From the NCBI GenBank assembly GCA_016215605.1, contig JACRJB010000067.1, positions 62,001-126,000 of the forward strand: 64,000 bases of DNA, written 5' to 3'. The stretch is from Rhodopseudomonas palustris (GTDB lineage: Bacteria; Pseudomonadota; Alphaproteobacteria; Rhizobiales; Xanthobacteraceae). The notes beneath the pieces are model-generated. The model had not been told where the DNA came from, searched no databases, and saw only the letters and a list, made by a program, of their open reading frames with translations. Numbering within the stretch: the stretch's first letter is position 1; every line of letters starts with the position of its first letter. This document shows, piece by piece, positions 6,762 through 21,789 of this stretch. The position numbers were made by a program, and so were the translations under genes.

Positions 6762-7958
6762 TCAGACCTTGACGATGCTCGGCAACCGCATCGCCGGCGG
6801 GGTGTTGCGCGAGCGCTCGCTGCGGACGATGCCGTCGATGATGGTCATGCCGATGCCCGGCAGATCGCCGAGGCGGACGCTCTCCAGCAGCGACGTACTG
6901 GCCGAATGCTGGGCCGCGTCCATGATCACGAAGTCGGCGACGCGGCCGACCTCGATCAGGCCGCAGTCGAGTTCGCGCATCCGGGCGGTGTTGCCGGTGG
7001 CGAGGCAGAACGCCTGCTCGGCGGGAAGATCGCCGAGCGACGACAGCAGCGATATCATTCGCAGGATGCCGAGCGGCTGCACGCCGGAGCCGGCCGGCCC
7101 GTCGGTGCCGAGGATGACGCGATTGAGATCGCCCATCTCGCGCGCGATCCGCAGCGTGTACAGCGCCGAGCGCTCGTTGCCGTTGTGCACGAGTTCGAGG
7201 CCGGCCTTGCAGCCCTCGCAGATGCAGCGGATCTGTCCGTCGGGCAGCGCGGTGTGGCCGCCGTTGATGTGGCCGATCACGTCGGTGCCGGCTTCCAGCA
7301 CGACGTCCTTGTCGATCAGTCCGGAGCCGGCGATCGACGGGCCGCCGGTGTGAATGGTGGACTGGATGCCGTATTTGCGCGCCCATGCGACCATCTTCTT
7401 CGCGGTCGGGCCGTCCTTGACGCCGCCGAGCCCGATCTCGCCGAGCAGCTTGACGCCGGCCGCCGCCAGCTCCTTGAAGTCGTTCTCGTCCATCTCGTGC
7501 TCGATCACCGGAGCGCCGGCATGGACCTTCACGCCGCTGGCGCGGAAGGCGGAGAAGCTGCGCTGCGCGGTGATCGCCAGCGCCTTGATGCCGACGACGT
7601 CGCGCGGCCGGCCGGGATAGTGCACCTCGCCGGCCGAGATCATCGTGGTGACGCCGCCGTGCAGCGAGGAGTCGATCCAGTTGAGCTGGCTCTGCCGCGG
7701 CGTCCAATCGCCGGCGACCGGATGCACGTGGCTGTCGATCAGGCCCGGCGTCACCGCCGCGCCGTGCGCATCGACGACGGTGGTGGCGCCCTCGGTGTCG
7801 ACGTCCTTGAGCCGGCCGATCGCGGAGATCTTGCCGTTCTCGGCCACGATGGTGTCGGCATCGAGGATCGGCTTGTCGAGGTCACCGCTGATCAGGAGGC
7901 CGATGTTGCGAATGACGAGCTTGGTCGGTCCCGTGGGGGCGGCGGCGTCGTGAGCCAT
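6762..7958 (-). CDS. ena: Enamidase (1,4,5,6-tetrahydro-6-oxonicotinate hydrolase)
   Basis: The 398-residue amidohydrolase closely resembles the Eubacterium barkeri enamidase that hydrolyses 1,4,5,6-tetrahydro-6-oxonicotinate to 2-formylglutarate and ammonia (EC 3.5.2.18). Shared blocks as I remember that protein are DSHVHP (metal HxH, about residue 75), GGVTTMISAG, PGRPRD, GIKALAIT, GVKVHAG, GEIGLGG, HTGGPSIAGS, HINGGHTA and GTDGPAGSG near 300, plus a C-terminal RNTPPA. The conserved His and Asp residues fit a binuclear metal site. It is cytoplasmic, with no signal peptide. It lies 108 bases downstream of fpr and is probably co-transcribed with it. Neighbouring nicotinate dehydrogenase and 6-hydroxynicotinate reductase genes strongly support the substrate. 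Confidence 0.88.
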   Translation of the reverse strand: MAHDAAAPTGPTKLVIRNIGLLISGDLDKPILDADTIVAENGKISAIGRLKDVDTEGATTVVDAHGAAVTPGLIDSHVHPVAGDWTPRQSQLNWIDSSLHGGVTTMISAGEVHYPGRPRDVVGIKALAITAQRSFSAFRASGVKVHAGAPVIEHEMDENDFKELAAAGVKLLGEIGLGGVKDGPTAKKMVAWARKYGIQSTIHTGGPSIAGSGLIDKDVVLEAGTDVIGHINGGHTALPDGQIRCICEGCKAGLELVHNGNERSALYTLRIAREMGDLNRVILGTDGPAGSGVQPLGILRMISLLSSLGDLPAEQAFCLATGNTARMRELDCGLIEVGRVADFVIMDAAQHSASTSLLESVRLGDLPGIGMTIIDGIVRSERSRNTPPAMRLPSIVKV

Positions 7959-8066: not shown

Positions 8067-8840
8067 TCAGCGCTCGGCGAAGGCCTTTTCCAGCACGAAG
8101 TCGCCGGCCTCGCCGTGATTGCCTTCCTCGAAACCGAGATCGGCCAGTCGCGTTTTCAGATCGATCATCATCTGGGTCGAGCCGCACAGCATCACGCGGT
8201 CGCGGGCTTTGTCGAGCGACGGCAGGCCGATGTCGGCATGGAGCTGACCGCTGTCCATCAGCTTCGAGATCCGGCCCTCGTGGACGAACGGCTCGCGGGT
8301 GACGGTCGGGTAGTAGATCAGCTTGGCCTTGACGTCGCCGCCGAGGAATTCGTGCTCCTGCAGCGCCGTGACCATCTGCTCGCCGTAGGCCAGCTCGGCG
8401 ATCTGCCGACAGCCGTGCACCAGCACGATCTTCTCGAACCGCTCGTAGGTCTCGGGATCGCGGATGATCGACAGGAACGGCGCGACGCCGGTGCCGGTCG
8501 CGAGCAGATACAGATTCTTGCCCTCGCGCAGATTGTCGATCACCAGCGTGCCGGTCGCCTTGCGGCCGACGATGATGGTGTCGCCCTCTTTGAGGTGCTG
8601 CAGGCGCGAGGTCAGCGGCCCGTTCGGCACCTTGATCGAATAGAACTCCAGCGTCTCTTCGTAGTTCGGGCTCGCCACCGAATAGGCCCGCAGCAGCGGG
8701 CGGCCGTCGACCTTGATGCCGGTCATGGTGAACTCACCGTTGCGGAACCGAAAACCGGAATCGCGGGTGGTGGTGAAGCTGAACAGACGATCGGTCCAAT
8801 GGCGCACGCTGAGAACGCGCTCTTCCATCAAATTGCTCAC
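8067..8840 (-). CDS. fpr: Ferredoxin--NADP(+) reductase
   Basis: The 257-residue FAD enzyme carries RAYSVASPN (FAD-binding RxYS) at about 50-58, KATGTLVI, ATGTGVAPFLSI (NADP-binding) near 115-126, and LCGSTQMM near 218. The bacterial-type length and aromatic-poor C-terminus (EKAFAER) match subclass I bacterial FPRs. It moves electrons between NADPH and ferredoxin or flavodoxin. A GTG start at 8840 is preferred because GAAAGG lies nine bases upstream; the next ATG (8828) has no ribosome site. 6-hydroxynicotinate reductase in E. barkeri uses reduced ferredoxin (EC 1.3.7.1), so this gene may supply that electron flow. No ferredoxin gene is in the cluster. Confidence 0.92.
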   Translation of the reverse strand: MSNLMEERVLSVRHWTDRLFSFTTTRDSGFRFRNGEFTMTGIKVDGRPLLRAYSVASPNYEETLEFYSIKVPNGPLTSRLQHLKEGDTIIVGRKATGTLVIDNLREGKNLYLLATGTGVAPFLSIIRDPETYERFEKIVLVHGCRQIAELAYGEQMVTALQEHEFLGGDVKAKLIYYPTVTREPFVHEGRISKLMDSGQLHADIGLPSLDKARDRVMLCGSTQMMIDLKTRLADLGFEEGNHGEAGDFVLEKAFAER

Positions 8841-9035: not shown

Positions 9036-12000
9036 TCAGTGCGTGCCCTGGTGAGCCCGCAGCCGCGTCACCGCCTGTTCGACTCCGCGCCAGGCCGGCG
9101 CTTGCGGAGCGAACGAGGCGCGCATGTAGTTCACCAGGGCTGCGACCTGCGCATCGCTGAAGCTGTTGCGGAACCCGGGCATGTCGCCGAGGTCCGCTGC
9201 GGCGGGATTGGGAATGCCGTCGAGTATCACTCGGATCAGATTGTCCGGATCGGCGGCATGCACATTGGTGTTGAGCGCCAGCACCGGGCGGACACCGAAC
9301 AGCGTCGGCCCGCTGTCGCTGTGGCAGGACGCGCAGGCGCCCTCGTAGAGCTTGCCGCCGAGCGAATCCAGCGGCCGCAGCGTCGCCGCCGCTTCGGCCT
9401 GCAGCGCCGCGGCGCGTTCGGCCGGTGGCTGTTCGGCGGCCGGCGCGAACGAGGCCAGATAGGTCGCCATCGCGCGGATGTCCGCATCCGGCAACGCGGA
9501 CAGCTGCTCCACCACCGGCGCCATCGGCCCGGCCGCGGTGCCGTGGAACTTCGAGAAGCCGCTGCGCAGATACGAGAACAGTTCGGCCTCGGTCCACGGA
9601 ATCGGCGCGCTGGACAGCGCATTCAGCGCGGGCGCGTGCCAGCCGTCGACCGTGCCGCCGCTCAGATACGAGGTTTGCGCCTTCTCCGCGCCGAGCGCGT
9701 TGCGCGGCGTGTGGCAGGCGCCGCAATGGCCGAGGCTCTCGACCAGATAGGCGCCGCGATTCCATTGCGGCGCCTTGGCCGGGTCGGCCTGCATCTGGCC
9801 GGTGCGCAGGAACAGCATGTTCCAGCCGGCCATCAGCGGCCGGATGTTGAACGGGAACGCCATCCGCGCTTCGGGCGTCGGCGCCTTCACCGGCGCCTGC
9901 GCCATCAGATAGGCGTACAGCGCCTGCAGATCGGTGTCGCTGGTCCGCGTGAAGGAGGCATAGGGAAACGCCGGGTAGAGATGCCGTCCGTCGCGGGCGA
10001 TGCCCTCGCGCATCGCGCGCTCGAACGCCGCGTAGGACCAGCGGCCGATGCCGGTCTCCGGATCGGGCGTGAGGTTGGTGGAGTACACGGTGCCGAACGG
10101 CGTCTCGACCGGCCGACCGCCGGCGTTGGTGACGCCGCCGATCTCGGTGTGGCACACCGCGCAACCGCCGAGCGCGGCGAGCTGCCGTCCGCGCGAGATC
10201 ATCTCGGCGGAGAAGCTCGCCGGATCTGGCGGCGTGATCGGCGCGAGCGCGCCGCGAATCGGCAGCGCCAGCGTCGCCATGCCGAGCGCGCCCGCGATCG
10301 CGGCACCCGCCATCTTGAACCACGACCGCTTCTTCGCCGCCGACGCGGGCGGCGGCGGCAACATCGGATTGCCGAGCGCGGCGCGCACCCGCTCCGGCGT
10401 GAACGGCGGCTCGCGCAGCCGCGCGCCGGTGGCGTCGAAGATCGCATTGGCAATCGCGGCCGCCGACGGCACCGAGGCGGACTCGCCGCTGCCGAGCGGC
10501 GGATCGTTCGGCCGCGGCATCAGCACGACGTTGATGACCGGCACTTCCGGGAAAGTGAGAATCGGGTACGCGCCCCATTCCTTGTCGGCGACCGCGGTGT
10601 CGGTGAAGCTGACCTGTTCCTTCAGCGCCCGGCTGGTGGACTGGATGACGTTGCCGTGGATCTGGTGCTCGACCCCGGCGGGGTTGATCATCAGCCCGGA
10701 ATCCTGCCCGACCACGACGCGCTTCACCGCAACGTCGCCGGTCGCCTTGTTGACCTCGACGTCGGCGACCCAGGCCGACCACGCCGCGCCGTAGCCCGGA
10801 AACTTGGAGTGGACGTAGAGCGCATAGGCGACGCCCTGGCCGCGCACGACGTCGCCTTCGACCACTTGTTGGCGCGGGCCGGTGCGATGCACCCAGCCGG
10901 CGCGTGCGGCGACCTCCTTCACCAGATCGACGGCCCGCGGATCGTGCAGATAGCGCAGCCGATACTCGACCGGATCGACGCCGGCCGCGGCGGCGAGTTC
11001 GTCGATGTAGCTCTCGTGCGCGAACGAGTTCGGCAGCGCCGAGACGCCGCGCAGCCACGACGCGCGCACGATCGGCGCCATGTCGTGCACCTTCACCCGG
11101 ATGTTGTCGTAAGCGTAAGGCGGGATCGCGGTGCGATCGCCCATCTCGAACACCGGATTGTTCGCCGGCACCCGACCTGTGAGTAGCAGCGCCAACGTCG
11201 TCGCCGCATTCGACGGATAGCGCGTCGCGAAATCATAGGCGGCGGGACTGCCATCGGCGTTGAGGCCGCCGGAAATTTCCATCAGTTGCGCCGCGCCTTT
11301 CGGCTCCCAGGCGTGCTCCTGCTCGCGGGTCAGTTGCACCCGCACCGGGCGGCCGACTGCGCGCGACAGCAGCGCCGCGTCGGCGGCGACGTCGTCGGCG
11401 CAGTTGCGGCCGTAGCAGCCGGCGGCCTCGAATCGCAGCACCTCGATGTCCTGCTCGGGTAGGCCGAGCAGTACCGAGAGATCGAGCCGCAGCGGATAGG
11501 GATTCTGCGTCCCCGACCAGACCGTCGCAGCGCCGTCGCGCACGTCCGCCACTGCGCAGGACGGACCGATCGAACCGTGCATCTGATACGGCCAGACATA
11601 GACGCGGTCCATCGGCACGGCGGCATCGGCACGGGCGCGATCGACGTCGCCTCTGTCGTGCAACGTCCGCGTCGTCGCCGGATTGGCGCCGAGCGCGGTG
11701 GCGAGATCGTCGAGATCCGGCAGCGGCGGCGGCGGCTTCCACTCCACCTTCAACACGCGCGCGGCCTCGATCGCCTGCTCCTCGCGCTCGGCGACAACGC
11801 CGATGAAATCGCCCATGCTGACGACGGCGACCACGCCCGGAATATGCGCGACGGAGGCTTCGTCGACACCGATCAGGCTGTGGCCGATGAAGTCGCCGGC
11901 ATCGACGCCCGCATAAGGCGGCCGCACCACGCGGCCGTGCAGCATGCCGGGCACCCGGACGTCGTGCACATAGACGAAGTCGCCGGTCGCCTTGGCGGGA

Positions 12001-12587
12001 ATGTCGGAGCGCGCGATGCGCTGGCCGACGATGCGATGTTCGGTCACCGGCTTGGTCGCGACATCGTCGGCGAGCATCAGGCGGTCGCTGCGGCCCTGCA
12101 GCAGCGATGCGTAGGACACGCCGACATTACTGCGGTCGCGCGGATGCACCACGCCGTCGGTGACGGTGAGTTGCTCCGGCGGCATCTCCAGTTCCTGCGC
12201 CGCCAGCGCGACGAGATGAAGCCGCGCCTGCGCCGCGGCGTTGCGCAGCGGCACCGCCGAGACCTGGATGCTGTCGCTGGCGATCGTCGCGCCCTGGTTC
12301 GGCGTGCCCGAGGTGTGGCCGAGCACCATGGTGACGGCGGCGAACGGGACGTCGAGTTCTTCCGCGACGATCTGCGCCAGCGCGGTGCGGATGCCGGTGC
12401 CGAGATCAACGTGGCCGTTGAAGGCGAGTACCTGCCCTGCATCGTCGAGAAACAGGAACAGGTCGAGCGCGCCGTCGGGCGGCGGCGCCGTCGGCACCAG
12501 CCCTTTGACGTACTGCGAGGGCCGCAGCACCGCGAGAGTGCCGGTGCGAGCCAGAAGGTCGGAAGCGACCGGCGTCGGCTCGCTCAT
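9036..12587 (-). CDS. nicB: Nicotinate dehydrogenase large subunit, molybdopterin domain fused to three cytochrome c domains
   Basis: The 1183-residue protein matches the architecture of Pseudomonas putida NicB (about 1187 residues). Residues 1-720 form a xanthine-oxidase-type molybdopterin domain (GHVDLGTGIRTALAQ, QNPYPLR, EAAGCYGRN, GSGESAS with the catalytic-type Glu). A hydrophobic helix near 735-755 anchors or exports the C-terminal part. Three c-type haem sites follow: CAVCH near 807, CGACH near 952 and CASCH near 1083. With NicA it hydroxylates nicotinate to 6-hydroxynicotinate and passes electrons to the respiratory chain (EC 1.17.2.1). Its ATG overlaps the nicA stop (ATGA). The haem domains must reach the periplasm, whereas the Mo domain has no signal, so topology is an open question for this family. 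Confidence 0.9.
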   Translation of the reverse strand: MSEPTPVASDLLARTGTLAVLRPSQYVKGLVPTAPPPDGALDLFLFLDDAGQVLAFNGHVDLGTGIRTALAQIVAEELDVPFAAVTMVLGHTSGTPNQGATIASDSIQVSAVPLRNAAAQARLHLVALAAQELEMPPEQLTVTDGVVHPRDRSNVGVSYASLLQGRSDRLMLADDVATKPVTEHRIVGQRIARSDIPAKATGDFVYVHDVRVPGMLHGRVVRPPYAGVDAGDFIGHSLIGVDEASVAHIPGVVAVVSMGDFIGVVAEREEQAIEAARVLKVEWKPPPPLPDLDDLATALGANPATTRTLHDRGDVDRARADAAVPMDRVYVWPYQMHGSIGPSCAVADVRDGAATVWSGTQNPYPLRLDLSVLLGLPEQDIEVLRFEAAGCYGRNCADDVAADAALLSRAVGRPVRVQLTREQEHAWEPKGAAQLMEISGGLNADGSPAAYDFATRYPSNAATTLALLLTGRVPANNPVFEMGDRTAIPPYAYDNIRVKVHDMAPIVRASWLRGVSALPNSFAHESYIDELAAAAGVDPVEYRLRYLHDPRAVDLVKEVAARAGWVHRTGPRQQVVEGDVVRGQGVAYALYVHSKFPGYGAAWSAWVADVEVNKATGDVAVKRVVVGQDSGLMINPAGVEHQIHGNVIQSTSRALKEQVSFTDTAVADKEWGAYPILTFPEVPVINVVLMPRPNDPPLGSGESASVPSAAAIANAIFDATGARLREPPFTPERVRAALGNPMLPPPPASAAKKRSWFKMAGAAIAGALGMATLALPIRGALAPITPPDPASFSAEMISRGRQLAALGGCAVCHTEIGGVTNAGGRPVETPFGTVYSTNLTPDPETGIGRWSYAAFERAMREGIARDGRHLYPAFPYASFTRTSDTDLQALYAYLMAQAPVKAPTPEARMAFPFNIRPLMAGWNMLFLRTGQMQADPAKAPQWNRGAYLVESLGHCGACHTPRNALGAEKAQTSYLSGGTVDGWHAPALNALSSAPIPWTEAELFSYLRSGFSKFHGTAAGPMAPVVEQLSALPDADIRAMATYLASFAPAAEQPPAERAAALQAEAAATLRPLDSLGGKLYEGACASCHSDSGPTLFGVRPVLALNTNVHAADPDNLIRVILDGIPNPAAADLGDMPGFRNSFSDAQVAALVNYMRASFAPQAPAWRGVEQAVTRLRAHQGTH

Positions 12588-13114
12588 CGCGGATCACTCG
12601 TCACGGCATCGCCTGGTGCAAGACCATCCGCGAGCGCGTTCAGCCCGGCGGCGGCCATCACGGCGCGCAGGATTTCCACATGCGTGCCGCAGCGGCACAG
12701 ATTGTAGCGCAACGCCTCGCGTACCTGATCGAGCGTCGGCGTGGGATTGCGGGCGAGAAACGCCGCGGTGGTCATGATCATGCCGTTGAGACAATAGCCG
12801 CACTGCGCCGCCTGCGCATCGATGAACGCGGCCTGCACCGGATGCAACGCGGCGGTTCCGCCGAGCCCTTCCAGCGTGGTGATCGACCGCCCCTCGGCGG
12901 TCTTCAGCGTCACCACGCAGGAGCGCGCCGCCACGCCGTCGATCAGCACCGTGCAGGCGCCACATTCGCCGAGGCCGCAGCCGAACTTCGGACCGTTGAG
13001 TCCGAGATCGTTGCGCAGCACGTAGATCAGTCTGGTGTCGCGCGGCAGATCGAAACTGTGCGTAACTCCGTTGACGGTCAGCGCCACGGGATCACTTTTT
13101 TGCGGCGGCGACAT
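12584..13114 (-). CDS. nicA: Nicotinate dehydrogenase small subunit, two [2Fe-2S] clusters
   Basis: The 176-residue protein belongs to the CoxS/IorA-type iron-sulfur subunits. A plant-type ferredoxin motif, FGCGLGECGACTV with a further Cys in ARSCVV, binds the first [2Fe-2S] cluster. A helical domain with QCGYCLNGMI and NLCRCGTH binds the second. It relays electrons from the molybdenum site of NicB. I start it at ATG 13114 (MSPPQKSDPVALTVNG), which gives a short tail before the first beta strand. In-frame codons farther upstream encode an unlikely cysteine-rich extension. It is translationally coupled to nicB and divergent from the 6-hydroxynicotinate reductase operon. Confidence 0.9.
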   Translation of the reverse strand: MSPPQKSDPVALTVNGVTHSFDLPRDTRLIYVLRNDLGLNGPKFGCGLGECGACTVLIDGVAARSCVVTLKTAEGRSITTLEGLGGTAALHPVQAAFIDAQAAQCGYCLNGMIMTTAAFLARNPTPTLDQVREALRYNLCRCGTHVEILRAVMAAAGLNALADGLAPGDAVTSDPR

Positions 13115-13231
13115 GTCAATTGTGCCCTGCAGCAAGCACCGTGCGGCTGTCGACGCAGGCGTCCGAGTGCGCTGCGAACACGATTTGTCTCCGCATATCC
13201 GCTTCCAGGCCGAGGCAGCCGTCCTGTCCTG

Positions 13232-13403: not shown

Positions 13404-14900
13404 ATGGCCGACGAAACCACTGCCGGGACGGACCAGGCCAGCGACGGAAAGATCCGCTGCGATGCTTGTCCGGTGATGTGCTACATCAAGCCCGGCATGA
13501 GCGGCGCCTGCGATCGCTACGCCAATCACAACGGCGATCTGGTCCGCGTCGATCCGCACATCGTGCTCGACCGCGCGCTGGAACACGGCAGCGCCGTGGT
13601 TCCGTTCCATCGCGACGGCTCGTGGGACGGCAAGCTGATCGCGGCCCCCGAAACCTTCGTTACGGCGATCGGCGCCGGCACCACCTATCCGGACTACAAG
13701 CCCGCGCCGTTCATCGTCTCGTCCGAAGTCGACGGCGTCGACATGGTGACCGTCGTCACCGAAGGAATCTTCAGTTACTGCGGCGTCAAGGTGAAGATCG
13801 ACACCGACCGCTTCCTCGGCCCGGAACAGGCGACCGTGCGCGCCGCGGGCGAAGCCGTGGGCCACGTCACCACCTCCGAATACGGCTCGCAGATGCTGTC
13901 GCTCGGCGGCGTGCATCACCTCACCGGCGGCAGCAAGAAGGAAGGCCGCGTCACCTGCGAAGCCCTGCTCGATTTGTGCAACGGCAAGGCGGTCGAACTC
14001 ACGATCGACGGCGGCTCCACCGTCGTGGTGCAGGCCGGACAGGCCCCGATCGTCAACGGCGTCAAGGAAGAGCGGATGCGGGTCGGCTGCGGCTCCGCGA
14101 CGATCGGCATGTTCGCCAAGCAATGGCTCGGCCTGGTCGACGACGTCGTGGTGGTCGACGATCACATCACCGGCGTGTTGTCCGAACATCAGGCCGGCAA
14201 GGTGCTGGACGTTCCCGACACCGGCATCAAGATCAAGGGCCGTCGCTCGACCCCGGGCCGTTACTTCCAGGTCGCCGAGCCCGGCACCGGCTGGGGCGGC
14301 ACCAACATCTCCGATCCGCTGTCGATCCTCGGCCCGTTCGATCGCAAGGTAGCGTGGCCCGGGCTGCGGCTGTACTTCATCTCGACCACCGGCGAACACG
14401 CGGCGTACTACGAGCTGGACGAAACGCTGACGCCGCGCGAAAAGCCGATGCCGGAGGCGCTGGCGGCATTGTCGCAGCGGGTGAAGGACAATTGCGAGCC
14501 GGCGCTCTCCACGGTGCTGTTCATGGCCGGCGCCGGCGGCTCGCTGCGCGCGGGAGTCACCGAAAACCCGGTGCGTCTAACACATTCGGTGAAGGACGCG
14601 CTGACCTACGTCACCTGCGGCGGCGCGCCGGTCTATGTCTATCCCGGCGGCGGCATCACGCTGATGGTCGACGTGACCAAGATGCCGGAGAACGCGTTCG
14701 GCTACGTGCCGACGCCCGCTCTGGTGGCGCCGATCGAATTCACGCTGCGGCTGTCGGACTACGAAGAGCTCGGCGGTCATATGGCCGAAGTCCGGCCGGT
14801 GTCGTCCATCGTCTCGAACGACGGCCTGCAGACCGTCGCGCCGCATTCCGACAACCCATGGCCGCTCGCACCGAATGCGGCCAAACGATTCTTCGGCTGA
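13404..14900 (+). CDS. hnr: 6-hydroxynicotinate reductase
   Basis: The 498-residue protein matches proteins annotated as 6-hydroxynicotinate reductase (EC 1.3.7.1), which reduce 6-hydroxynicotinate to 1,4,5,6-tetrahydro-6-oxonicotinate with reduced ferredoxin. The N-terminus has C-x2-C-x3-C-x9-C (Cys19, 22, 26, 36), suited to an iron-sulfur cluster. The rest is an alpha/beta protein with glycine-rich segments (GGVHHLTGGS, AGAGGSLRAGV). There is no signal peptide. I chose ATG 13404 over an upstream in-frame start because the extension would run through the operator at 13335. The next gene is a UPF0280/ApbE-like protein; I recall that the E. barkeri reductase carries covalently bound flavin, which would make that neighbour meaningful. 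The family assignment relies on recognition plus the flanking nicotinate genes. Confidence 0.82.
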   Translation: MADETTAGTDQASDGKIRCDACPVMCYIKPGMSGACDRYANHNGDLVRVDPHIVLDRALEHGSAVVPFHRDGSWDGKLIAAPETFVTAIGAGTTYPDYKPAPFIVSSEVDGVDMVTVVTEGIFSYCGVKVKIDTDRFLGPEQATVRAAGEAVGHVTTSEYGSQMLSLGGVHHLTGGSKKEGRVTCEALLDLCNGKAVELTIDGGSTVVVQAGQAPIVNGVKEERMRVGCGSATIGMFAKQWLGLVDDVVVVDDHITGVLSEHQAGKVLDVPDTGIKIKGRRSTPGRYFQVAEPGTGWGGTNISDPLSILGPFDRKVAWPGLRLYFISTTGEHAAYYELDETLTPREKPMPEALAALSQRVKDNCEPALSTVLFMAGAGGSLRAGVTENPVRLTHSVKDALTYVTCGGAPVYVYPGGGITLMVDVTKMPENAFGYVPTPALVAPIEFTLRLSDYEELGGHMAEVRPVSSIVSNDGLQTVAPHSDNPWPLAPNAAKRFFG

Positions 14901-14904
14901 TCCG

Positions 14905-15819
14905 ATGGCCGCCCCGCACCTCCTCACCCCGGTTCGAGGACGCGCAGCGCAGGCGGCGATGCTGGCGGACGGCCGCCGGCTGCATCTGCAGGATGGACCG
15001 ATCGACCTGATCATCGAGGCGAGCGGAGATGCCCGCGCCGTCCGGCACGCCTACGCGGCTGCCGCGCAGCGCTTCGCCGGCCTGCTCGATGCGCTGTGCG
15101 CCGAGCTGTCCGCTTTGCGCACGCCGGCGCGAAGCGACATGCCGGCGTTCGGTCATCCGGTGGCGCAGCGCATGGCCGATGCGGTGGCGCCGTTCGCGGG
15201 CGAGATCTTCATCACGCCGATGGCCGCCGTGGCGGGGGCCGTCGCGGACGAGATCCTGAAGGCGCTGATCTGCCCCGGCATCACCCGCGCTTACGTCAAC
15301 AACGGCGGAGATATCGCGCTGCATCTGTCGCAAGGCGCGCGCTTCACCGTGGGGCTGGTCGACCGTCCGGATGAGCCGCGTCTGGTCGGCCGGGCCGAGA
15401 TCGACGCGAACGGCCCGGTGCGCGGCGTCGCCACCAGCGGCTGGCGCGGACGCAGCTTCTCGCTCGGGATCGCCGACGCCGTGACCATACTGGCGCCCAC
15501 CGCCGCGACGGCGGACGCCGCGGCCACCGTGGTCGCCAATGCGGTCGACCTGCCCGGCCATCGCGGCATCGTTCGACAGGCCGCCTGCGAGCTTCAACCG
15601 GACAGCGATCTGGGTACACTGCAAGTCACCCGGCAGGTGCCGCGGCTCGGTGCAACGGATCGGTCCGAGGCGCTGGGCGCCGGCCTGACCATGGCGCGCG
15701 CGCTTCTGTCGCGCGGGCTGATCTGCGCCGCGGCCCTGCATTTGCAGGGAGACTCGGCGAGCGTCGGCTCCGCGACTTTCGTTTCCTTGCAACCACAACA
15801 CGAGCAGCCCGATGCCTGA
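14905..15819 (+). CDS. UPF0280-family protein, ApbE-like fold
   Basis: The 304-residue protein is of the UPF0280 family. The family is related to ApbE, the transferase that attaches FMN from FAD to Thr or Ser of target proteins. Visible blocks are ITPMAAVAGAVADEIL near 108-123, AYVNNGGDIALHL near 131-143, GVATSGWRGRSFSLGIADAV near 174-193, and a TAATADAAATVVANA helix. These correspond in order to ApbE's NGGD-like and TSG-like segments. It starts four bases after hnr, and its last bases overlap the next gene, so the genes are tightly co-transcribed. A role in flavinylating or maturing the reductase is inferred, not shown. The MAAPHL start is used; a longer in-frame start at 14875 would overlap hnr. 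Confidence 0.75.
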   Translation: MAAPHLLTPVRGRAAQAAMLADGRRLHLQDGPIDLIIEASGDARAVRHAYAAAAQRFAGLLDALCAELSALRTPARSDMPAFGHPVAQRMADAVAPFAGEIFITPMAAVAGAVADEILKALICPGITRAYVNNGGDIALHLSQGARFTVGLVDRPDEPRLVGRAEIDANGPVRGVATSGWRGRSFSLGIADAVTILAPTAATADAAATVVANAVDLPGHRGIVRQAACELQPDSDLGTLQVTRQVPRLGATDRSEALGAGLTMARALLSRGLICAAALHLQGDSASVGSATFVSLQPQHEQPDA

Positions 15820-16396
15820 GGTCAAAATCCGCAAGAAGCTCCTGATCACCGAGGAGATCTTCCACGAGGGCGGCCCGGTGGCGGCGACGCCGCGGCGGCG
15901 CGGCGCGATCATCGCGGTGATCGAGAATCCGTTCGCCGGCCGCTACGTTCAGGACATCTCGGGCTTCATGGACGATCTGACGCCGCTCGGCGTGGCGCTG
16001 GCCGGCGAACTGCTGCAGGCGCTCGGCGGCGATGCGAAGGCGATCGACGGCTACGGCAAGGGCGCGATCGTCGGCGCGGACGGCGAGCTGGAGCACGGCG
16101 CGCTGTGGCACGTGCCCGGCGGCTACGCGATGCGCGAGATCCTCGGCGACGCCAAGGCGATCGTGCCCTCGACCAAGAAGGTCGGCGGTCCGGGCACCCG
16201 GCTCGACGTGCCGGTGACCCATGTCAACGCGTCCTACGTGCGCAGCCATTTCGACGCGATGGAAGTCGGCGTGACCGATGCGCCGAAGGCGAACGAGATC
16301 GCGCTCGTGCTAGTAATGAGTTCCGGCCCGCGGGTCCACGCCCGCGTCGGCGGCCTCGCTGCGGCGGACATCAAGGGTGAGGACGGCCTGCGATGA
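15812..16396 (+). CDS. DUF1185 family protein, paralogue A
   Basis: The 194-residue protein belongs to the family labelled amino acid synthesis (PF06684, DUF1185). Signature stretches are KIRKKLLITEEI at the N-terminus, AVIENPFAGRYVQDI near 31-45, GYGKGAIVG near 75-83, YVRSHFDAMEV near 143-153 and the C-terminal ADIKGEDGLR. No transmembrane segment or cofactor motif is visible. It is about half identical to the next gene and of the same length, so the two probably arose by duplication and may form a mixed oligomer. It overlaps UPF0280 at its start and paralogue B at its end by four bases. The reaction is unknown; the operon implies a step in, or maintenance of, nicotinate breakdown. Confidence 0.82.
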   Translation: MPEVKIRKKLLITEEIFHEGGPVAATPRRRGAIIAVIENPFAGRYVQDISGFMDDLTPLGVALAGELLQALGGDAKAIDGYGKGAIVGADGELEHGALWHVPGGYAMREILGDAKAIVPSTKKVGGPGTRLDVPVTHVNASYVRSHFDAMEVGVTDAPKANEIALVLVMSSGPRVHARVGGLAAADIKGEDGLR

Positions 16397-16977
16397 GCGC
16401 GAAAATCCGCAAGATCGTCGTCATCGTCGAAGAGACGCTGACTGAAATGGGACGCACCGTCACGCCGCCGACCCGCCGCGCCGCCGCTATCGCGGTGATC
16501 GAAAATCCGTTCGCCGGTCGCTACGTCGAGGACCTGTCCGAGCTGATCGCGATCGGCGAAGAACTCGGCGGGCTGCTCACCGAGAAGGCGGTCGCCGCGC
16601 TCGGCATCGACGGCGCCAAGGCCGAGAGCTACGGCAAGGCCGCACTGGTCGGCGAGAACGGCGAGTTGGAACACGCCGCCGCCTTGCTGCACCCGAAGAT
16701 GGGCGCGCCGGTGCGCAAGGTGCTCGGCAAGGGCGCGGCCTTGATCCCGTCGTCGAAGCGGCGCGGCGGCCTCGGCGCCGAGCTCGACATTCCGCTCGGG
16801 CACAAGGACGCCGCCTTCGTGCGCAGCCATTTCGACGGCATGCAGGTGAGTGTATCGGATGCGCCGCGCGCCAATGAGATCGTGGTGGCGGTGGCCGTCA
16901 CGGATTCCGGCCGGCCGCTGCCGCGCGTCGGCGGACTGACGACCGCCGAAATCAAAGGCGAAGACGGGCTACGCTAA
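16393..16977 (+). CDS. DUF1185 family protein, paralogue B
   Basis: The 194-residue paralogue of the preceding protein shares AVIENPFAGRYVEDL, SYGKAALVG, FVRSHFDGMQV, DAPRANEI and AEIKGEDGLR. Its ATG overlaps the stop of paralogue A (ATGA), implying equal production. Differences cluster in the central region, LHPKMGAPVRKVLGKG versus WHVPGGYAMREILGDA, which may separate a catalytic from a structural role. No known pathway step is assigned to this family. A gap of about 100 bases follows before the transporter genes. Confidence 0.82.
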   Translation: MSAKIRKIVVIVEETLTEMGRTVTPPTRRAAAIAVIENPFAGRYVEDLSELIAIGEELGGLLTEKAVAALGIDGAKAESYGKAALVGENGELEHAAALLHPKMGAPVRKVLGKGAALIPSSKRRGGLGAELDIPLGHKDAAFVRSHFDGMQVSVSDAPRANEIVVAVAVTDSGRPLPRVGGLTTAEIKGEDGLR

Positions 16978-17078
16978 AGAATGATGTTTTCGAGTGAGGC
17001 GGAGCCCGGCTCGCTTGAAGGCAAAAACGTCAAGACGACGAGTGGCTGAGGTTGGTTCAACACAGAGGGCATGAGCGT

Positions 17079-18275
17079 ATGAAACAAGTTGCACGACTAG
17101 CTTTGACGGCACTGCTTTTCGCTTCCGGCGTCGCCCATGCGCAGCAGGGCGAGATCAAGGTCGGAGAGATCAACTCCTATTCGGCCCTGCCCGGCTTCAC
17201 CGAGCCTTACCGCAAGGGCATGGAACTGGCGCTGAAGCAGATCAACGACGCCGGCGGCATCAAGGGCAAGAAGCTGGTCGTCATCACCAAGGACGACGGC
17301 GGCAAGCCGGGCGACGCGCTGACCGCCGCCAACGAACTGGTGTCGCGCGACGGCGTGGTGCTGATCGCGGGCGGCTTCCTGTCGAATATCGGGCTGGCGC
17401 TGTCGGACTTCGCCAAGCAGAAGAAGGTGCTGTACGTCGCGGCCGAGCCTCTCACCGACGCTATCGTGTGGTCGAAGGGCAACGATTACACCTTCCGGCT
17501 GCGCACCTCGAACTACATGCAGGCCTCGATGCTGGCGGAAGAAGCCGCCAAGCTGCCGGCCAAGAAGTGGGCCACCATCGCGCCGAACTACGAATTCGGC
17601 CAGTCGTTCGTCGCCGCGTTCAAGGAAATCCTGAGCAAGAAGCGTCCGGACGTCGAGTTCGTCGCCGAGCAGTGGCCGCCGCTCAACAAGATCGACGCCG
17701 GCCCGGTGCTGCAGGCGATCGACGCCGCCAAGCCCGACGCCATCCTCAACGCCACCTTCGCCGGCGATCTGGTGAAGCTGGTCCGCGAAGGCAACACCCG
17801 CGGCGTGTTCAAGGACCGCGCGGTGGTGAGCTATCTGACCGGCGAGCCGGAATATCTCGACCCGCTGAAGACTGAAACGCCGGAAGGCTGGATCGTCACC
17901 GGCTATCCCTGGTACGCGATCGACACGCCGGAGCACAAAGCCTTCCTCGACGCCTATCAGCAGCTCAACAAGGACTATCCGCGGCTCGGTTCGGTGGTCG
18001 GCTACGCCACCGTGAAGACCATCGCCGCCGTGCTGACGGCCACCGACGATCATTCGACTGACGGCCTGGTCAAGGCGATGAAGAACCTGAAGGTCGACAC
18101 CCCGTTCGGCACGGTCGTCTACCGCGCCGGCGATCATCAGTCGACGATGGGCGCCTTTGTCGGCAAGACCACGCAGAAGGACGGTAAGGGCATCATGGTC
18201 GACGTGGTGTTCAAGAAGGGCGCCGACTATCTGCCGAGCGAGGCCGACGCCGCCAAGCTGCGTCCGGCGAACTGA
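17079..18275 (+). CDS. Liv-type ABC transporter, periplasmic substrate-binding protein
   Basis: The 398-residue precursor has a Sec signal peptide (MKQVARLALTALLFASGVAHA, cleavage near residue 21). The mature type I binding protein reads IKVGEINSYSALPGFTEPYRKG, GGIKGKKLVVITKDD, then FAGDLVKLVREG and SVVGYATVKTIAAVL. It resembles LivK/HbpA-like receptors that bind amino acids or aromatic and carboxylic acids. Its position inside the nicotinate cluster suggests nicotinate or 6-hydroxynicotinate as ligand, by inference only. I start at ATG 17079, preceded by AGAGGG. A palindrome follows the stop codon. Confidence 0.87.
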   Translation: MKQVARLALTALLFASGVAHAQQGEIKVGEINSYSALPGFTEPYRKGMELALKQINDAGGIKGKKLVVITKDDGGKPGDALTAANELVSRDGVVLIAGGFLSNIGLALSDFAKQKKVLYVAAEPLTDAIVWSKGNDYTFRLRTSNYMQASMLAEEAAKLPAKKWATIAPNYEFGQSFVAAFKEILSKKRPDVEFVAEQWPPLNKIDAGPVLQAIDAAKPDAILNATFAGDLVKLVREGNTRGVFKDRAVVSYLTGEPEYLDPLKTETPEGWIVTGYPWYAIDTPEHKAFLDAYQQLNKDYPRLGSVVGYATVKTIAAVLTATDDHSTDGLVKAMKNLKVDTPFGTVVYRAGDHQSTMGAFVGKTTQKDGKGIMVDVVFKKGADYLPSEADAAKLRPAN

Positions 18276-18276
18276 G

Positions 18277-18299
18277 GCGTCGCGGGCGACGCGTCGCCC
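18277..18299 (+). other. Intercistronic palindrome after the binding-protein gene
   Basis: GGGCGACGCGTCGCCC (18284-18299) is a perfect 16-base palindrome. It overlaps an alternative stem GCGTCGC-GG-GCGACGC (18277-18292). No T tract follows. Hairpins at this place in ABC operons often stabilise the upstream mRNA, so the binding protein is made in excess. Confidence 0.45.
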
Positions 18300-18395
18300 T
18301 CGCGTACTGCTCCCGACTTTGACGAACGGCCGCCGCTGGCGACAGCGGCGGCGACCATCGGGTTCATCGATTTTCTCCAGACGAAAGGCGTCGCC

Positions 18396-20309
18396 GTGGA
18401 ACTGATCTTGGTCCAGGCCCTCAGTGGTCTCGCCAGCGCTGCGTCGCTGTTCCTGGTGGCGTCGGGGCTCTCGATCATCTTCGGCGTCACGCGCATCGTG
18501 AACTTCGCGCACGGCGCCTTCTACATGCTGGGCGCCTATGTGGCTTTCACGCTGACCGACCGTTTCTCCGGCGCGCTCGGCTTCTGGGGCGGCCTCGTCG
18601 CCGCCAGCCTGATTGTCGCGCTGCTCGGCGCGTTGATGGAGATGGTGCTGCTGCGCCGCATCTATCACGCGCCCGAGCTGTTCCAGTTGCTTGCCACGTT
18701 CGGCGTGACGCTGATGGTTCAGGACATCGTGGTGCTGATCTGGGGCGCCGACGATCTGATGGGGCCGCGCGCCCCTGGCTTTACCGGAGCGTTCAGCCTG
18801 TTCGGCCGGCTGGTGCCGACCTACGATCTCTTGCTGATCGTGCTCGGCCCCGCCGTGCTCGGCGCACTGTGGCTGCTGTTTCACCGCACCCGCTGGGGCG
18901 TGCTGGTGCGCGCCGCGACGCAGGATCGCGACATGGTCGCGTGCCTCGGCGTGAATCAGAAGTGGCTGTTCACCAGCGTGTTCGCGCTCGGCGTGTTCCT
19001 CGCCGCACTCGGCGGCGCGCTGCAGATCCCGCGCACCACCGTCACCCACTACATGGACCTGTCGATCATCGTCGAAGTGTTCGTGGTGGTGGTGATCGGC
19101 GGCCTCGGCTCGGTCACCGGCGCGTTCATCGCCGCGGTGCTGGTGTCTGAACTGAACGCGCTGGGCATCCTGGTGCTGCCGAAGATCTCGCTGATCGCGG
19201 TGTTCCTGGTGATGGCGGTGGTGCTGGTGGTGCGGCCCTACGGCCTGCTCGGCAAGGCCGAGCGCGGCGTGCGCGCCAGCGCCGGGATCTCGTTCCGTCC
19301 GTGGAAGCCGATGTCGCAATGGGAACGCATCGGCGCCGCGGTGCTGGTGGCGAGTGCGGCGCTGCTGCCGTTGTTCGCCGGCAACTACCTGCTGAGCGTC
19401 GGTTCGGAGATCCTGGTGTTCGTGCTGTTCGCCGCCAGCCTGCACTTCATGATGACGGTGGGCGGCCTCGCCTCGTTCGGCCATGCCGCGTTCTTCGGCC
19501 TCGGTGCTTACGGCGCCGCCTTCGCGGTCAAATTTCTCGGGGCGCCGATGGAGGTGGCCCTGCTCGTCGGCCCGCTGTTCGGGCTGATCGGGGCCGTGGT
19601 GTCGGGCTGGTTCTGCGTGCGGCTGTCCGGGGTGTATTTCGCGATGCTGACGCTGGCCTTCGCGCAAATCATCTGGTCGATCGCGTTCCAATGGGTCGAG
19701 GTGACCGGCGGCGACAACGGCATTCTCGGAATCTGGCCGTCGGCCTGGGCGTCCAGCCCGCGGGGCTTCTTCTGGCTGACGCTCGGCGTTTCCGTCGTCG
19801 GCGTGGCGCTGCTGCGGATGCTGGTGTTCTCGCCCTACGGCTTCGGGCTGCGGGCGACGCGCGACAACACCTTGCGCTCCGATGCCATCGGCATCGATCG
19901 CAAGTCGGTGCAGTGGGCCGCTCTGCTGGTGGCCGGCACCTTCGCCGGCGTCGCCGGCGCGCTGTTCGCCTTCCTTAAGGGCTCGGTGTTTCCGGAGTCG
20001 CTGGCGATTCCGATCTCGGTCGACGGCCTGGTGATGGTGCTGCTCGGCGGCATCGAGACCGTGTCCGGCGCGGTGGTCGGCGCGATCGTCTACAAGGCGC
20101 TGGCGATCTGGCTGATGAGCCAGACCGACCTTTCCAAGCTCGTGCTCGGCGCGATCATCGTGCTGCTGGTGGTGGCTGCGCCGAAGGGCATCGTCGGCTT
20201 CATCGAAGATTGGCGCCATCGCCGCCCGCCCGCACCGAACGGCACCGGCCCCGAAGCCGCGGGCAAGTCGGGCACGGTCGGAATCGCCAAGATGGAGGCC
20301 GCCGAATGA
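18396..20309 (+). CDS. Fused Liv-type ABC permease (LivH-LivM in one chain)
   Basis: The 637-residue membrane protein joins both permease subunits. Residues 1-295 are LivH-like (GLSIIFGVTRIVNFAHGAFYMLGAY; FVVVVIGGLGSVTGAFIAA). After a short linker (RPWKPMSQWER), residues 310-600 are LivM-like (GGLASFGHAAFFGLGAYGAAF; VDGLVMVLLGGIETVSGAVVGA). About 14-16 membrane helices are expected. The GTG at 18396 is the start. Its stop overlaps the next ATG. Such fusions are common in Liv-type systems. It works with the binding protein before it and the two ATPases after it. Confidence 0.9.
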   Translation: MELILVQALSGLASAASLFLVASGLSIIFGVTRIVNFAHGAFYMLGAYVAFTLTDRFSGALGFWGGLVAASLIVALLGALMEMVLLRRIYHAPELFQLLATFGVTLMVQDIVVLIWGADDLMGPRAPGFTGAFSLFGRLVPTYDLLLIVLGPAVLGALWLLFHRTRWGVLVRAATQDRDMVACLGVNQKWLFTSVFALGVFLAALGGALQIPRTTVTHYMDLSIIVEVFVVVVIGGLGSVTGAFIAAVLVSELNALGILVLPKISLIAVFLVMAVVLVVRPYGLLGKAERGVRASAGISFRPWKPMSQWERIGAAVLVASAALLPLFAGNYLLSVGSEILVFVLFAASLHFMMTVGGLASFGHAAFFGLGAYGAAFAVKFLGAPMEVALLVGPLFGLIGAVVSGWFCVRLSGVYFAMLTLAFAQIIWSIAFQWVEVTGGDNGILGIWPSAWASSPRGFFWLTLGVSVVGVALLRMLVFSPYGFGLRATRDNTLRSDAIGIDRKSVQWAALLVAGTFAGVAGALFAFLKGSVFPESLAIPISVDGLVMVLLGGIETVSGAVVGAIVYKALAIWLMSQTDLSKLVLGAIIVLLVVAAPKGIVGFIEDWRHRRPPAPNGTGPEAAGKSGTVGIAKMEAAE

Positions 20310-21088
20310 CCACGCTGCTCGACGTCAAAGGGCTGGTGAAGTCCTATTCCGGCGTGCATGCGGTGCGCGACGTCAGTTTCGCGGTCAGGCCCGGCGAAAT
20401 CCTGGCGCTGATCGGCCCGAACGGCGCCGGCAAGAGCACCTGCTTCAACATGCTCAACGGCCAGATCCGGCCGGACGCCGGCTCGATCAAGCTCGCCGGC
20501 GAGGAAGTCGTCGGCCTGCCGCCGCGCACGGTGTGGCGGCGCGGCGTCGGCCGCACCTTTCAGATCACCGCGACGTTCTCGTCGATGACCGTGCGTGAAA
20601 ACGTTCAGGTCGCGCTGCTGTCGTTTCACCGCCGACTGTGGTCGTTGTTCGGCTATGCCGGCAAAAGCTATCTCGACGAGGCGAACGAACTGCTGACCCT
20701 TGTCGGCATGCAGGAACAGGCCGAGCGGCCCTGCGGCGAACTCGCTTACGGCGACCTCAAGCGCCTCGAGCTGGCCGTGGCGCTGGCCAACCAGCCGCGG
20801 CTGCTGCTGATGGACGAGCCGACCGCCGGCATGGCGCCGAAGGAACGCGTCGAACTGATGCGTCTGACCGCCGGCATCGCCCGCCGCAAGGACATCGGCG
20901 TGCTGTTCACCGAGCACGACATGGACGTCGTGTTCGAACACGCGGACGAAGTGATGGTACTGAACCGCGGCCAGCTGGTGGCGCGCGGCACGCCGCAGCA
21001 GGTCCGCAGCGATCCGCACGTCCAGGCGATCTATCTCGGAGACGGCCTGCTGTACGACGCCAAGCACCGCAAGGAGACCGTGCAATGA
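20306..21088 (+). CDS. Liv-type ABC transporter ATPase (LivG-like)
   Basis: The 260-residue ATPase has Walker A GPNGAGKST, the LivG-type insertion around GRTFQITATFSSMTVRENV, a degenerate ABC signature LAYGDLKRLELA, Walker B LLLMDEPTAGMA and the switch His in FTEHDMDVVF. It powers the fused permease at the inner membrane together with the following LivF-like ATPase. ATG 20306 overlaps the permease stop, and its own stop overlaps the next ATG (ATGA), indicating coupled translation. Confidence 0.92.
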   Translation: MTTLLDVKGLVKSYSGVHAVRDVSFAVRPGEILALIGPNGAGKSTCFNMLNGQIRPDAGSIKLAGEEVVGLPPRTVWRRGVGRTFQITATFSSMTVRENVQVALLSFHRRLWSLFGYAGKSYLDEANELLTLVGMQEQAERPCGELAYGDLKRLELAVALANQPRLLLMDEPTAGMAPKERVELMRLTAGIARRKDIGVLFTEHDMDVVFEHADEVMVLNRGQLVARGTPQQVRSDPHVQAIYLGDGLLYDAKHRKETVQ

Positions 21089-21789
21089 AGCTTGAAGTCT
21101 CCGACCTCAACAGCTTCTACGGACCGGCCCACATCCTGTTCGACGTCGGTTTCGCCGTCGGCGAAGGCGAGGTCGTCGCGATGCTCGGGCGCAACGGCGC
21201 CGGCAAGAGCACCACGTTTCGCTCGGTGGTCGGCCTGGTGTCGCGGCGCGCCGGCAGCGTGATCTTCGAGGGCGAGGACGTCTCGCGACTGCCGCCCTAC
21301 GAGATCGTGCGGCGCGGGCTCGGCTACGTGCCGGAGGACCGCCGGATCTTCACCGAGCTGAGCGTCGAGGAGAATTTCGAGGTCGGCCGCCAGAAGGCCC
21401 GCCCGGGCGTGGCCGAATGGACGCCGGACCGGATCTACAAGCTGTTTCCCAATCTGGGCGAGATGCGCAAGCGGCTCGGCGGCGACATGAGCGGCGGCGA
21501 ACAGCAGATGCTGAGCATCGGCCGGACGCTGATGGGCAACCCGTCGCTGGTGCTGCTGGACGAACCCTCCGAGGGGCTGGCGCCGAAGATCGTCGAACAG
21601 ATGGCCGACGCCATTCTGGCGATGAAGCGCGAAGGACTCAGCATCATCATTTCCGAGCAGAATTTGCATTTTGCCAAGCTGATCTGCGATCGCGCCTATA
21701 TCATCGAGAAGGGACGCATTCGATTCTCCGGCACGATCGACGAACTCGAAGCGCACCCCGAAATCCGGGACGCCTACCTTGCGGTGTGA
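21085..21789 (+). CDS. Liv-type ABC transporter ATPase (LivF-like)
   Basis: The 234-residue ATPase has Walker A GRNGAGKSTT, LGYVPEDRRIFTELSVEEN typical of LivF, signature MSGGEQQML, Walker B LVLLDEPSEGLAP and EQNLHFAKLICDRAYIIEKG. It forms the second nucleotide-binding subunit of the transporter. It is the last transport gene; the MarR regulator gene follows after 26 bases. Confidence 0.92.
   Translation: MKLEVSDLNSFYGPAHILFDVGFAVGEGEVVAMLGRNGAGKSTTFRSVVGLVSRRAGSVIFEGEDVSRLPPYEIVRRGLGYVPEDRRIFTELSVEENFEVGRQKARPGVAEWTPDRIYKLFPNLGEMRKRLGGDMSGGEQQMLSIGRTLMGNPSLVLLDEPSEGLAPKIVEQMADAILAMKREGLSIIISEQNLHFAKLICDRAYIIEKGRIRFSGTIDELEAHPEIRDAYLAV

Follow-up and report, generated by a model that had tools for sequence, protein, structure and literature searches.

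A UPF0280 protein encoded beside 6-hydroxynicotinate reductase is a candidate cytosolic flavin transferase

Introduction

How does 6-hydroxynicotinate reductase (Hnr) obtain its flavin, and does the gene that follows hnr have a part in it? This question is raised by the gene order in the 64,000-nucleotide stretch of Rhodopseudomonas palustris DNA analysed here (the window), which belongs to a genome of 5.8 Mb. The E. barkeri enzyme was reportedly purified with covalent flavin by Alhapel et al. in 2006 (PNAS), and by analogy the Hnr of the window may carry one as well. Should this flavin be bound via a Thr or Ser, its attachment in the cytosol calls for some agent. The gene after hnr encodes a member of the UPF0280 family, which we take to be the same as COG2122 and DUF375. 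The initial annotation had proposed that the two genes form a pair of an enzyme and its private maturation factor. Our literature search, which subscription papers lay outside, returned no account of how Hnr gets its flavin, no publication joining UPF0280 with Hnr and no paper under the name UPF0280; the available portions of the COG2122 literature report no activity for the protein.

Results and discussion

The nicotinate-degradation locus

The locus is a nicotinate-degradation cluster with the following genes.

6762..7958, − strand: amidohydrolase, likely the enamidase of the next pathway step (translation read by eye)
8067..8840, − strand: FAD/NAD-binding oxidoreductase, ferredoxin-NADP reductase-like
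9036..12587, − strand: molybdopterin subunit with C-terminal cytochrome c domains (nicotinate dehydrogenase type)
12587..13120, − strand: 2Fe-2S subunit of molybdenum hydroxylase (nicotinate dehydrogenase type)
13404..14900, + strand: hnr, 6-hydroxynicotinate reductase homologue, 498 aa, presumed client of UPF0280
14905..15819, + strand: UPF0280 / NF003322 protein, 304 aa; putatively a cytosolic flavin transferase or a factor in flavin maturation
15812..16396, + strand: first gene of a tandem AA_synth (PF06684) pair, overlapping the end of UPF0280
16393..16977, + strand: second gene of the tandem AA_synth (PF06684) pair
17052..21789, + strand: ABC transporter of the branched-chain type, with a binding protein, fused permeases and two ATPases

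The hnr gene ends with TGA at position 14900. Four bases, TCCG, separate it from the UPF0280 start codon (ATG) at 14905, as given by the initial annotation; an alternative in-frame ATG for UPF0280 is present at 14875. A cluster of the same kind has been described from a Bradyrhizobiaceae strain, whose reductase is 42% identical to the E. barkeri enzyme (PMC3511419, available in part). The oxidoreductase at 8067..8840 could possibly supply Hnr with electrons, and on a Comamonadaceae plasmid the gene upstream of hnr is annotated as ferredoxin--NADP reductase. The ABC transporter, with its binding protein, permease and first ATPase assigned by family search and its second ATPase by reading, presumably serves substrate uptake, and a MarR regulator gene is listed after it in the cluster, on the + strand. 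Cytochrom_C matched the large subunit of the molybdenum hydroxylase (9036-12587, − strand) in three stretches, and these cytochrome c domains suggest that electrons from nicotinate go to the respiratory chain.

Linkage of UPF0280 with hnr

Gene-neighbourhood linkage across genomes, which the initial annotation had suggested as a check, turned out to be tight, and co-occurrence of the two genes is near-perfect. The lack of such linkage, named there as a ground for refutation, was thus not seen. In a class sample of 240 genomes (203 genera, related by descent), we found hnr in 38 genomes from 27 families. UPF0280 matches were present in 42 genomes, namely these same 38 and four others in which the match was weak and below the cut-off (E 4.6e-7 to 6.5e-4). 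Judged by position, hnr and UPF0280 are neighbours with a common orientation in 37 of these pairs; in the remaining one (G231) they are on two contigs, and in G064 and G087 a contig end cuts UPF0280. Within the phylum, UPF0280 exceeded the cut-off in 32 of 398 genomes. Thirty of these 32 genes were examined, and each of the 30 follows hnr on the same strand, at a distance of 9-498 bases in the 26 new loci, the other four being already in the class sample. On plasmids, hnr was found in 26 records and UPF0280 in 27, with 26 records common to both.

A contig scan yielded 587 confirmed places for hnr, the best 80 of which are the named loci used here. They are rich in Bradyrhizobium and by title comprise Alphaproteobacteria, Acidobacteria-type MAGs and a few entries given only as Pseudomonadota or Proteobacteria. 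Among these best 80 of 587, UPF0280 was the next match downstream of hnr, on the same strand and 6-316 bases away, at 77 loci. UPF0280 lies elsewhere in the genome for each of the three exceptions (L104, L109 and L134): in two of these genomes it stands away from hnr and leads an AA_synth pair (L144, L146), while in the third the match (L147) has one TAG inside and its stretch is too short to place.

The UPF0280 gene that has no hnr match on its plasmid (L192 8932-9864; Hydrogenophaga sp. BPS33 plasmid pBPS33-1) adjoins an IS1071 transposase gene, at a place where blocks of genes are repeated.

A second partner enzyme

Homocysteine synthesis in D. vulgaris depends on the COG2122 gene, of the family of UPF0280, which is also important at low sulfide in M. 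acetivorans. In D. vulgaris it is required together with DUF39 and a NIL/ferredoxin protein, the fitness profiles of COG2122 and DUF39 correlate at r=0.98, and the role of COG2122 in the synthesis was left open in the part of the paper available (PMC5764234).

We found HcyBio/DUF39 (PF01837) in 7 of 199 Acidobacteriota genomes. UPF0280 matched at E below 1e-16 in eight of the 199, seven with HcyBio and one with hnr, the last (G243) being the centre of the sample, chosen for its hnr and not a random draw. A ninth UPF0280 match, at 1.8e-5, reads as an ApbE lipoprotein, and five other hnr matches in Acidobacteriota, at 5e-5 or weaker, are short fragments. UPF0280 was within 0.4 kb of HcyBio in all seven genomes and on the same strand in six. 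These seven UPF0280 proteins are far below the NF003322 cut-off and have G-H-S in six of seven cases, where the Hnr type has G-R-S. HcyBio was found in none of the 398 sampled genomes of the window's phylum, gave no match on plasmids and was absent from the scanned viral contigs. Thus, in our samples, UPF0280 goes with one or the other of two enzymes, Hnr or HcyBio. The description of UPF0280 as a dedicated, private factor therefore stands for the window's phylum and fails for the family as a whole. As a point against, the control genome of Synechococcus elongatus was matched by HcyBio and not by NF003322, so that HcyBio-family proteins without a detected UPF0280 exist.

Common ancestry of Hnr and HcyBio was considered, as stretches of the two look alike to the eye, and found no support. 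Pfam, HMMER and hhalign gave no match between them, and in the profile comparison reversed controls outscored the true pair; both alignments were shallow (Neff ~2), so that a remote homology could have escaped it.

Relationship of UPF0280 to ApbE

UPF0280 of the window is a clear member of NCBIfam NF003322 (419.1 bits over residues 14-299, against a curated cut-off of 290). With the Pfam ApbE family (PF02424) it scored 24.4 bits (E=2.5e-5), below the gathering cut-off of 25.6, and profile-profile comparison with ApbE gave E=5.7e-6 across 97 columns. Its AlphaFold model (pLDDT 92.8) had as best Foldseek match 2o34 (DVU1097, DUF375; E=1.7e-10), which is also the best sequence match, and ranks 3 to 40 were ApbE, FmnB or Ftp structures. 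Matches to FmnB and to the ApbEs of E. coli, P. stutzeri and V. cholerae had E values of 3.8e-5 upward and probabilities of mostly 0.97-1.00, with TM-scores of just ~0.25-0.5. UPF0280 is thus a remote ApbE relative, with a resemblance beyond chance. Three ApbE-like blocks lie at the following positions.

15298..15312, + strand: N-N-G-G-D block of UPF0280, residues 132-136
15433..15453, + strand: T-S-G-W-R-G-R block of UPF0280, residues 177-183, aligned with the TSG of ApbE
15511..15528, + strand: A-D-A-A-A-T of UPF0280, residues 203-208, aligned with the A-D-x-x-x-T of ApbE

The blocks NNGGD, TSGWRGR and TAATADA (the last at residues 199-205), first noticed as ApbE-like and in ApbE order by the initial annotation, are indeed present and are conserved in 133 distinct homologues. 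Residues N132, G135, D136, S178, G182, S184, S186, G188, A203 and D204 are invariant among these, R183 is Arg in 132 of the 133, and at T208 one homologue has Ser and the other 132 have Thr. In V. cholerae ApbE, Ser241, His257 and Asp285 are given as the conserved catalytic residues (PMC12052999, available in part), and by motif position S178 and D204 of UPF0280 would correspond to Ser241 and Asp285. The general base of ApbE, His257 in the V. cholerae protein, belongs to an H-x-x-D-P-x-T-G segment that falls in an alignment gap in UPF0280. There the TSG block leads almost directly into the last strand, and R183 stands where the missing segment would start.

In summary of likeness, UPF0280 resembles ApbE, Ftp and FmnB (PF02424) in its Foldseek fold, in block order and in the TSG and A-D-x-x-x-T residues, and the genes of both adjoin that of a redox enzyme. 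It differs from ApbE in falling under the Pfam cut-off, in lacking H-x-x-D-P-x-T-G and in its N terminus, which by eye is without the signal-like SRRRFV or SRRRMI seen in the two ApbEs of the window genome; UPF0280 is predicted to be cytosolic. About 85 residues of helices separate its strands 33-41 and 126-133, and in T. maritima ApbE, for comparison, a helical insert comprises residues 88-190 (PMC12052999, in part). A cytosolic ApbE of Klebsiella that flavinylates a soluble fumarate reductase likewise combines a cytosolic transferase with a soluble reductase, but it is a conventional ApbE that acts on the canonical motif (same source, in part).

Linkage and fold both lend good support to the proposal that an enzyme is paired here with its maturation factor. 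Since UPF0280 is related to ApbE and in the sampled genomes occurs almost only with Hnr or one other enzyme, it probably installs the Hnr flavin. We put at somewhat under 60% the probability that UPF0280 is a divergent cytosolic flavin transferase of the ApbE superfamily, which would mature the neighbouring 6-hydroxynicotinate reductase by attaching FMN to a conserved Thr or Ser. The protein would most likely bind FAD and Mg2+ and transfer FMN via a phosphoester bond to Hnr, using the retained A-D-x-x-x-T and TSG blocks, with some other residue replacing the missing His of ApbE. This transferase reading is favoured by the second partner, HcyBio, which shares the ApbE-target spacing D-x-x-[ST]-x-x-[ST]. 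Against it speak the score under the ApbE cut-off, the missing His segment, the nearly equal linkage of AA_synth genes, the lack of a conserved canonical target motif in Hnr and the case of Synechococcus elongatus. A self-catalysed 8-alpha flavin link in Hnr would need no transferase.

The same fold and conserved blocks, with the catalytic His missing, equally fit a flavin-handling factor without transferase activity, that is, an FAD pyrophosphatase or an FMN/FAD chaperone that loads Hnr. In that case Hnr would bind flavin non-covalently or link it by itself. The ApbE family does include the FAD pyrophosphatase of T. pallidum, according to the accessible portion of the literature. However, so close an association with two enzyme families, as found in the samples, is more to be expected of a target-specific modifier than of a general flavin hydrolase, and we consider such a role without transfer unlikely.

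Sulfur chemistry and the AA_synth genes

The pathway of the second partner brings sulfur into consideration. UPF0280 could serve both partners in sulfur or Fe-S chemistry, through persulfide or cluster delivery, a role of the sort suggested for COG2122 in the making of homocysteine and cysteine. Rauch and colleagues suggested that COG2122 might act in persulfide modifications, and DUF39 shares a pathway with a NIL/ferredoxin protein (both PMC5764234, in part); for the homologue from M. voltae, Fe-S ligands close to the C terminus have been proposed (PMC9431491, in part). Hnr itself has eight Cys residues (19, 22, 26, 36, 126, 185, 229 and 364) that are invariant in an alignment of 29 sequences. 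Yet UPF0280 of the Hnr type has no conserved Cys, with at most 56% in any column of 133 sequences, which disfavours Cys-based sulfur or Fe-S chemistry. The residues that UPF0280 does keep are those of the ApbE active site, and sulfur transfer is not needed for the chemistry of Hnr. A sulfur-related role thus appears quite improbable to us.

The AA_synth tandem pair (15812-16977) is nearly as conserved in the cluster as UPF0280. Among the best 80 of 587 loci, AA_synth was found within 3 kb downstream of UPF0280 at 72 of 77, or at 72 of the 75 with room for it, L098 and L110 having no room beyond UPF0280. AA_synth is thus linked almost as tightly as hnr, and neighbourhood alone does not identify the client of UPF0280, which might instead serve AA_synth (PF06684) or another pathway step, the linkage to hnr merely reflecting the operon. 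L144 and L146, where UPF0280 precedes an AA_synth pair and hnr is missing from the 3.8 kb examined, agree with this. On the other hand, L065, L118 and L127 have hnr and UPF0280 with no AA_synth match in the following 2.0-7.1 kb, at L104 AA_synth comes directly after hnr with no UPF0280 between them, and none of the seven HcyBio loci (2.7-4.0 kb each) contains AA_synth. We therefore hold it to be very unlikely that UPF0280 acts for AA_synth or another step.

Hnr and its candidate flavin acceptor

The closest relative of the window's Hnr among the best 80 of 587 matches is from Rhodopseudomonas (84%), and plasmid homologues, at 63-71%, are in part annotated as 6-hydroxynicotinate reductase. Hnr matched no Pfam family above cut-off and we found no solved relative; its structure model is poor (pLDDT 65.8), and Foldseek on this poor model gave nothing at E 0.001 or better.

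We searched for conventional ApbE (PF02424) in 43 hnr-positive genomes, namely the 38 of the class sample and five of the 28 new UPF0280-positive phylum genomes, taken for spread. It was present in 23 and gave no match in 20, of which 16 are among the 39 high-quality genomes, so conventional ApbE cannot be the general answer. That Hnr receives its flavin from conventional ApbE or by its own action, as many covalent flavins are self-attached (PMC12052999, in part), with UPF0280 incidental, is highly improbable, because the 20 genomes without a PF02424 match speak against it and the strict co-occurrence of UPF0280 with hnr would be left unexplained.

If UPF0280 is the transferase, Hnr should offer a conserved Thr or Ser. 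Residues were counted in 131 distinct Hnr genes (135 alignment rows before duplicates were removed), and the two sites below came into consideration.

13740..13760, + strand: candidate flavinylation site A of Hnr, D113-M-V-T116-V-V-T119
14550..14561, + strand: candidate flavinylation site B of Hnr, A383-G-V-T386

The ApbE target motif is D-x-x-[ST]-G-A-[ST] (PMC12052999, in part), and in this canonical form it is not a conserved feature of the 131 Hnr sequences. Its spacing, D-x-x-[ST]-x-x-[ST], is conserved once, at site A, with V-V in place of G-A: D113 and T116 are found in 131 of 131, and residue 119 is Thr in 114 and Ser in 17. In HcyBio the spacing likewise occurs once among invariant columns (D25-T28-T31, in 7/7 proteins). 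When the Asp columns were circularly shifted against the Ser/Thr columns, at least one such pattern arose in 41 of 485 cases for Hnr and 4 of 337 for HcyBio, and of 64 comparable spacings five are present in Hnr and seven in HcyBio. The comparison was made after the sequences had been viewed and rests on seven related HcyBio proteins. Given this hindsight, and the loss of G-A at the centre, site A is only a lead. Site B, of the form [A/S]-G-[V/A/I]-T, has Thr386 in 130 of 131 and Val in one; it reads G-A-T in seven of the 131, one of them S-G-A-T. It is nearer to the canonical ApbE-target core than site A, but is without the Asp. Judged from these sequences, our best guess for the acceptor would be Thr/Ser119 in D-x-x-T-x-x-[T/S], with Thr386 in [A/S]-G-[V/A]-T as second choice.

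Thr233 in CGSAT, put forward as a weak candidate by the initial annotation, was rejected as acceptor, being Ala in 14 of the 131 distinct Hnr genes.

Implications for protein flavinylation

If UPF0280 is a flavin transferase, protein flavinylation extends beyond conventional ApbE. A broader proposal, tentative and in our view rather doubtful, is that UPF0280/COG2122 constitutes another branch of flavin transferases, a cytosolic one, which serves two or more clients (Hnr and HcyBio/DUF39) and has a relaxed D-x-x-[ST]-x-x-[ST] target and a different general base. Were this so, methanogens, sulfate reducers and some Acidobacteriota would have an unrecognised covalent flavoprotein in their homocysteine synthase. 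The pairing with two enzyme families makes both the role of COG2122 and the origin of the Hnr flavin directly testable.

Further observations on the two families

Weak UPF0280 matches in genomes without hnr or HcyBio were of several kinds by reading. The match in G109 is a short-chain dehydrogenase; those in G717 and G790 are ApbE-like proteins that keep the His segment, and that in G260 is an ApbE-like protein whose translation, as far as read, shows no clear one; G143, G099 and G121 share an unnamed family of 250-265 aa. Members of this unnamed family (L202 2979-3773; L204 2356-3150; L205 2717-3469) match NF003322 weakly, come from genomes without hnr, gave no Pfam hit in the two searched and end in G-R-G-R-x-I-G ... 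L-R-F-G-V-S-x-W-R.

Hnr was not found on the scanned viral contigs. In one single-contig genome (G028:C1:2969796-2971261), hnr is in two overlapping pieces in different frames, through a frameshift, a sequencing error or decay to a pseudogene, and the adjoining UPF0280 is intact. Residues 10-48 of Hnr (13431-13547), with the pattern C-x2-C-x3-C-x9-C, resemble the start of the AmmeMemoRadiSam radical SAM family (TIGR04337) at E=0.0079, far below the cut-off. This N-terminal Cys stretch also gave short matches to frames of 362-380 aa in four Acidobacteriota genomes. Residues 127-162 (13782-13889) are weakly like the C-terminal barrel of glycine-cleavage T-protein (PF08669), a resemblance seen in 29 of 29 aligned Hnr sequences at E up to 10, the best being 3.7e-5.
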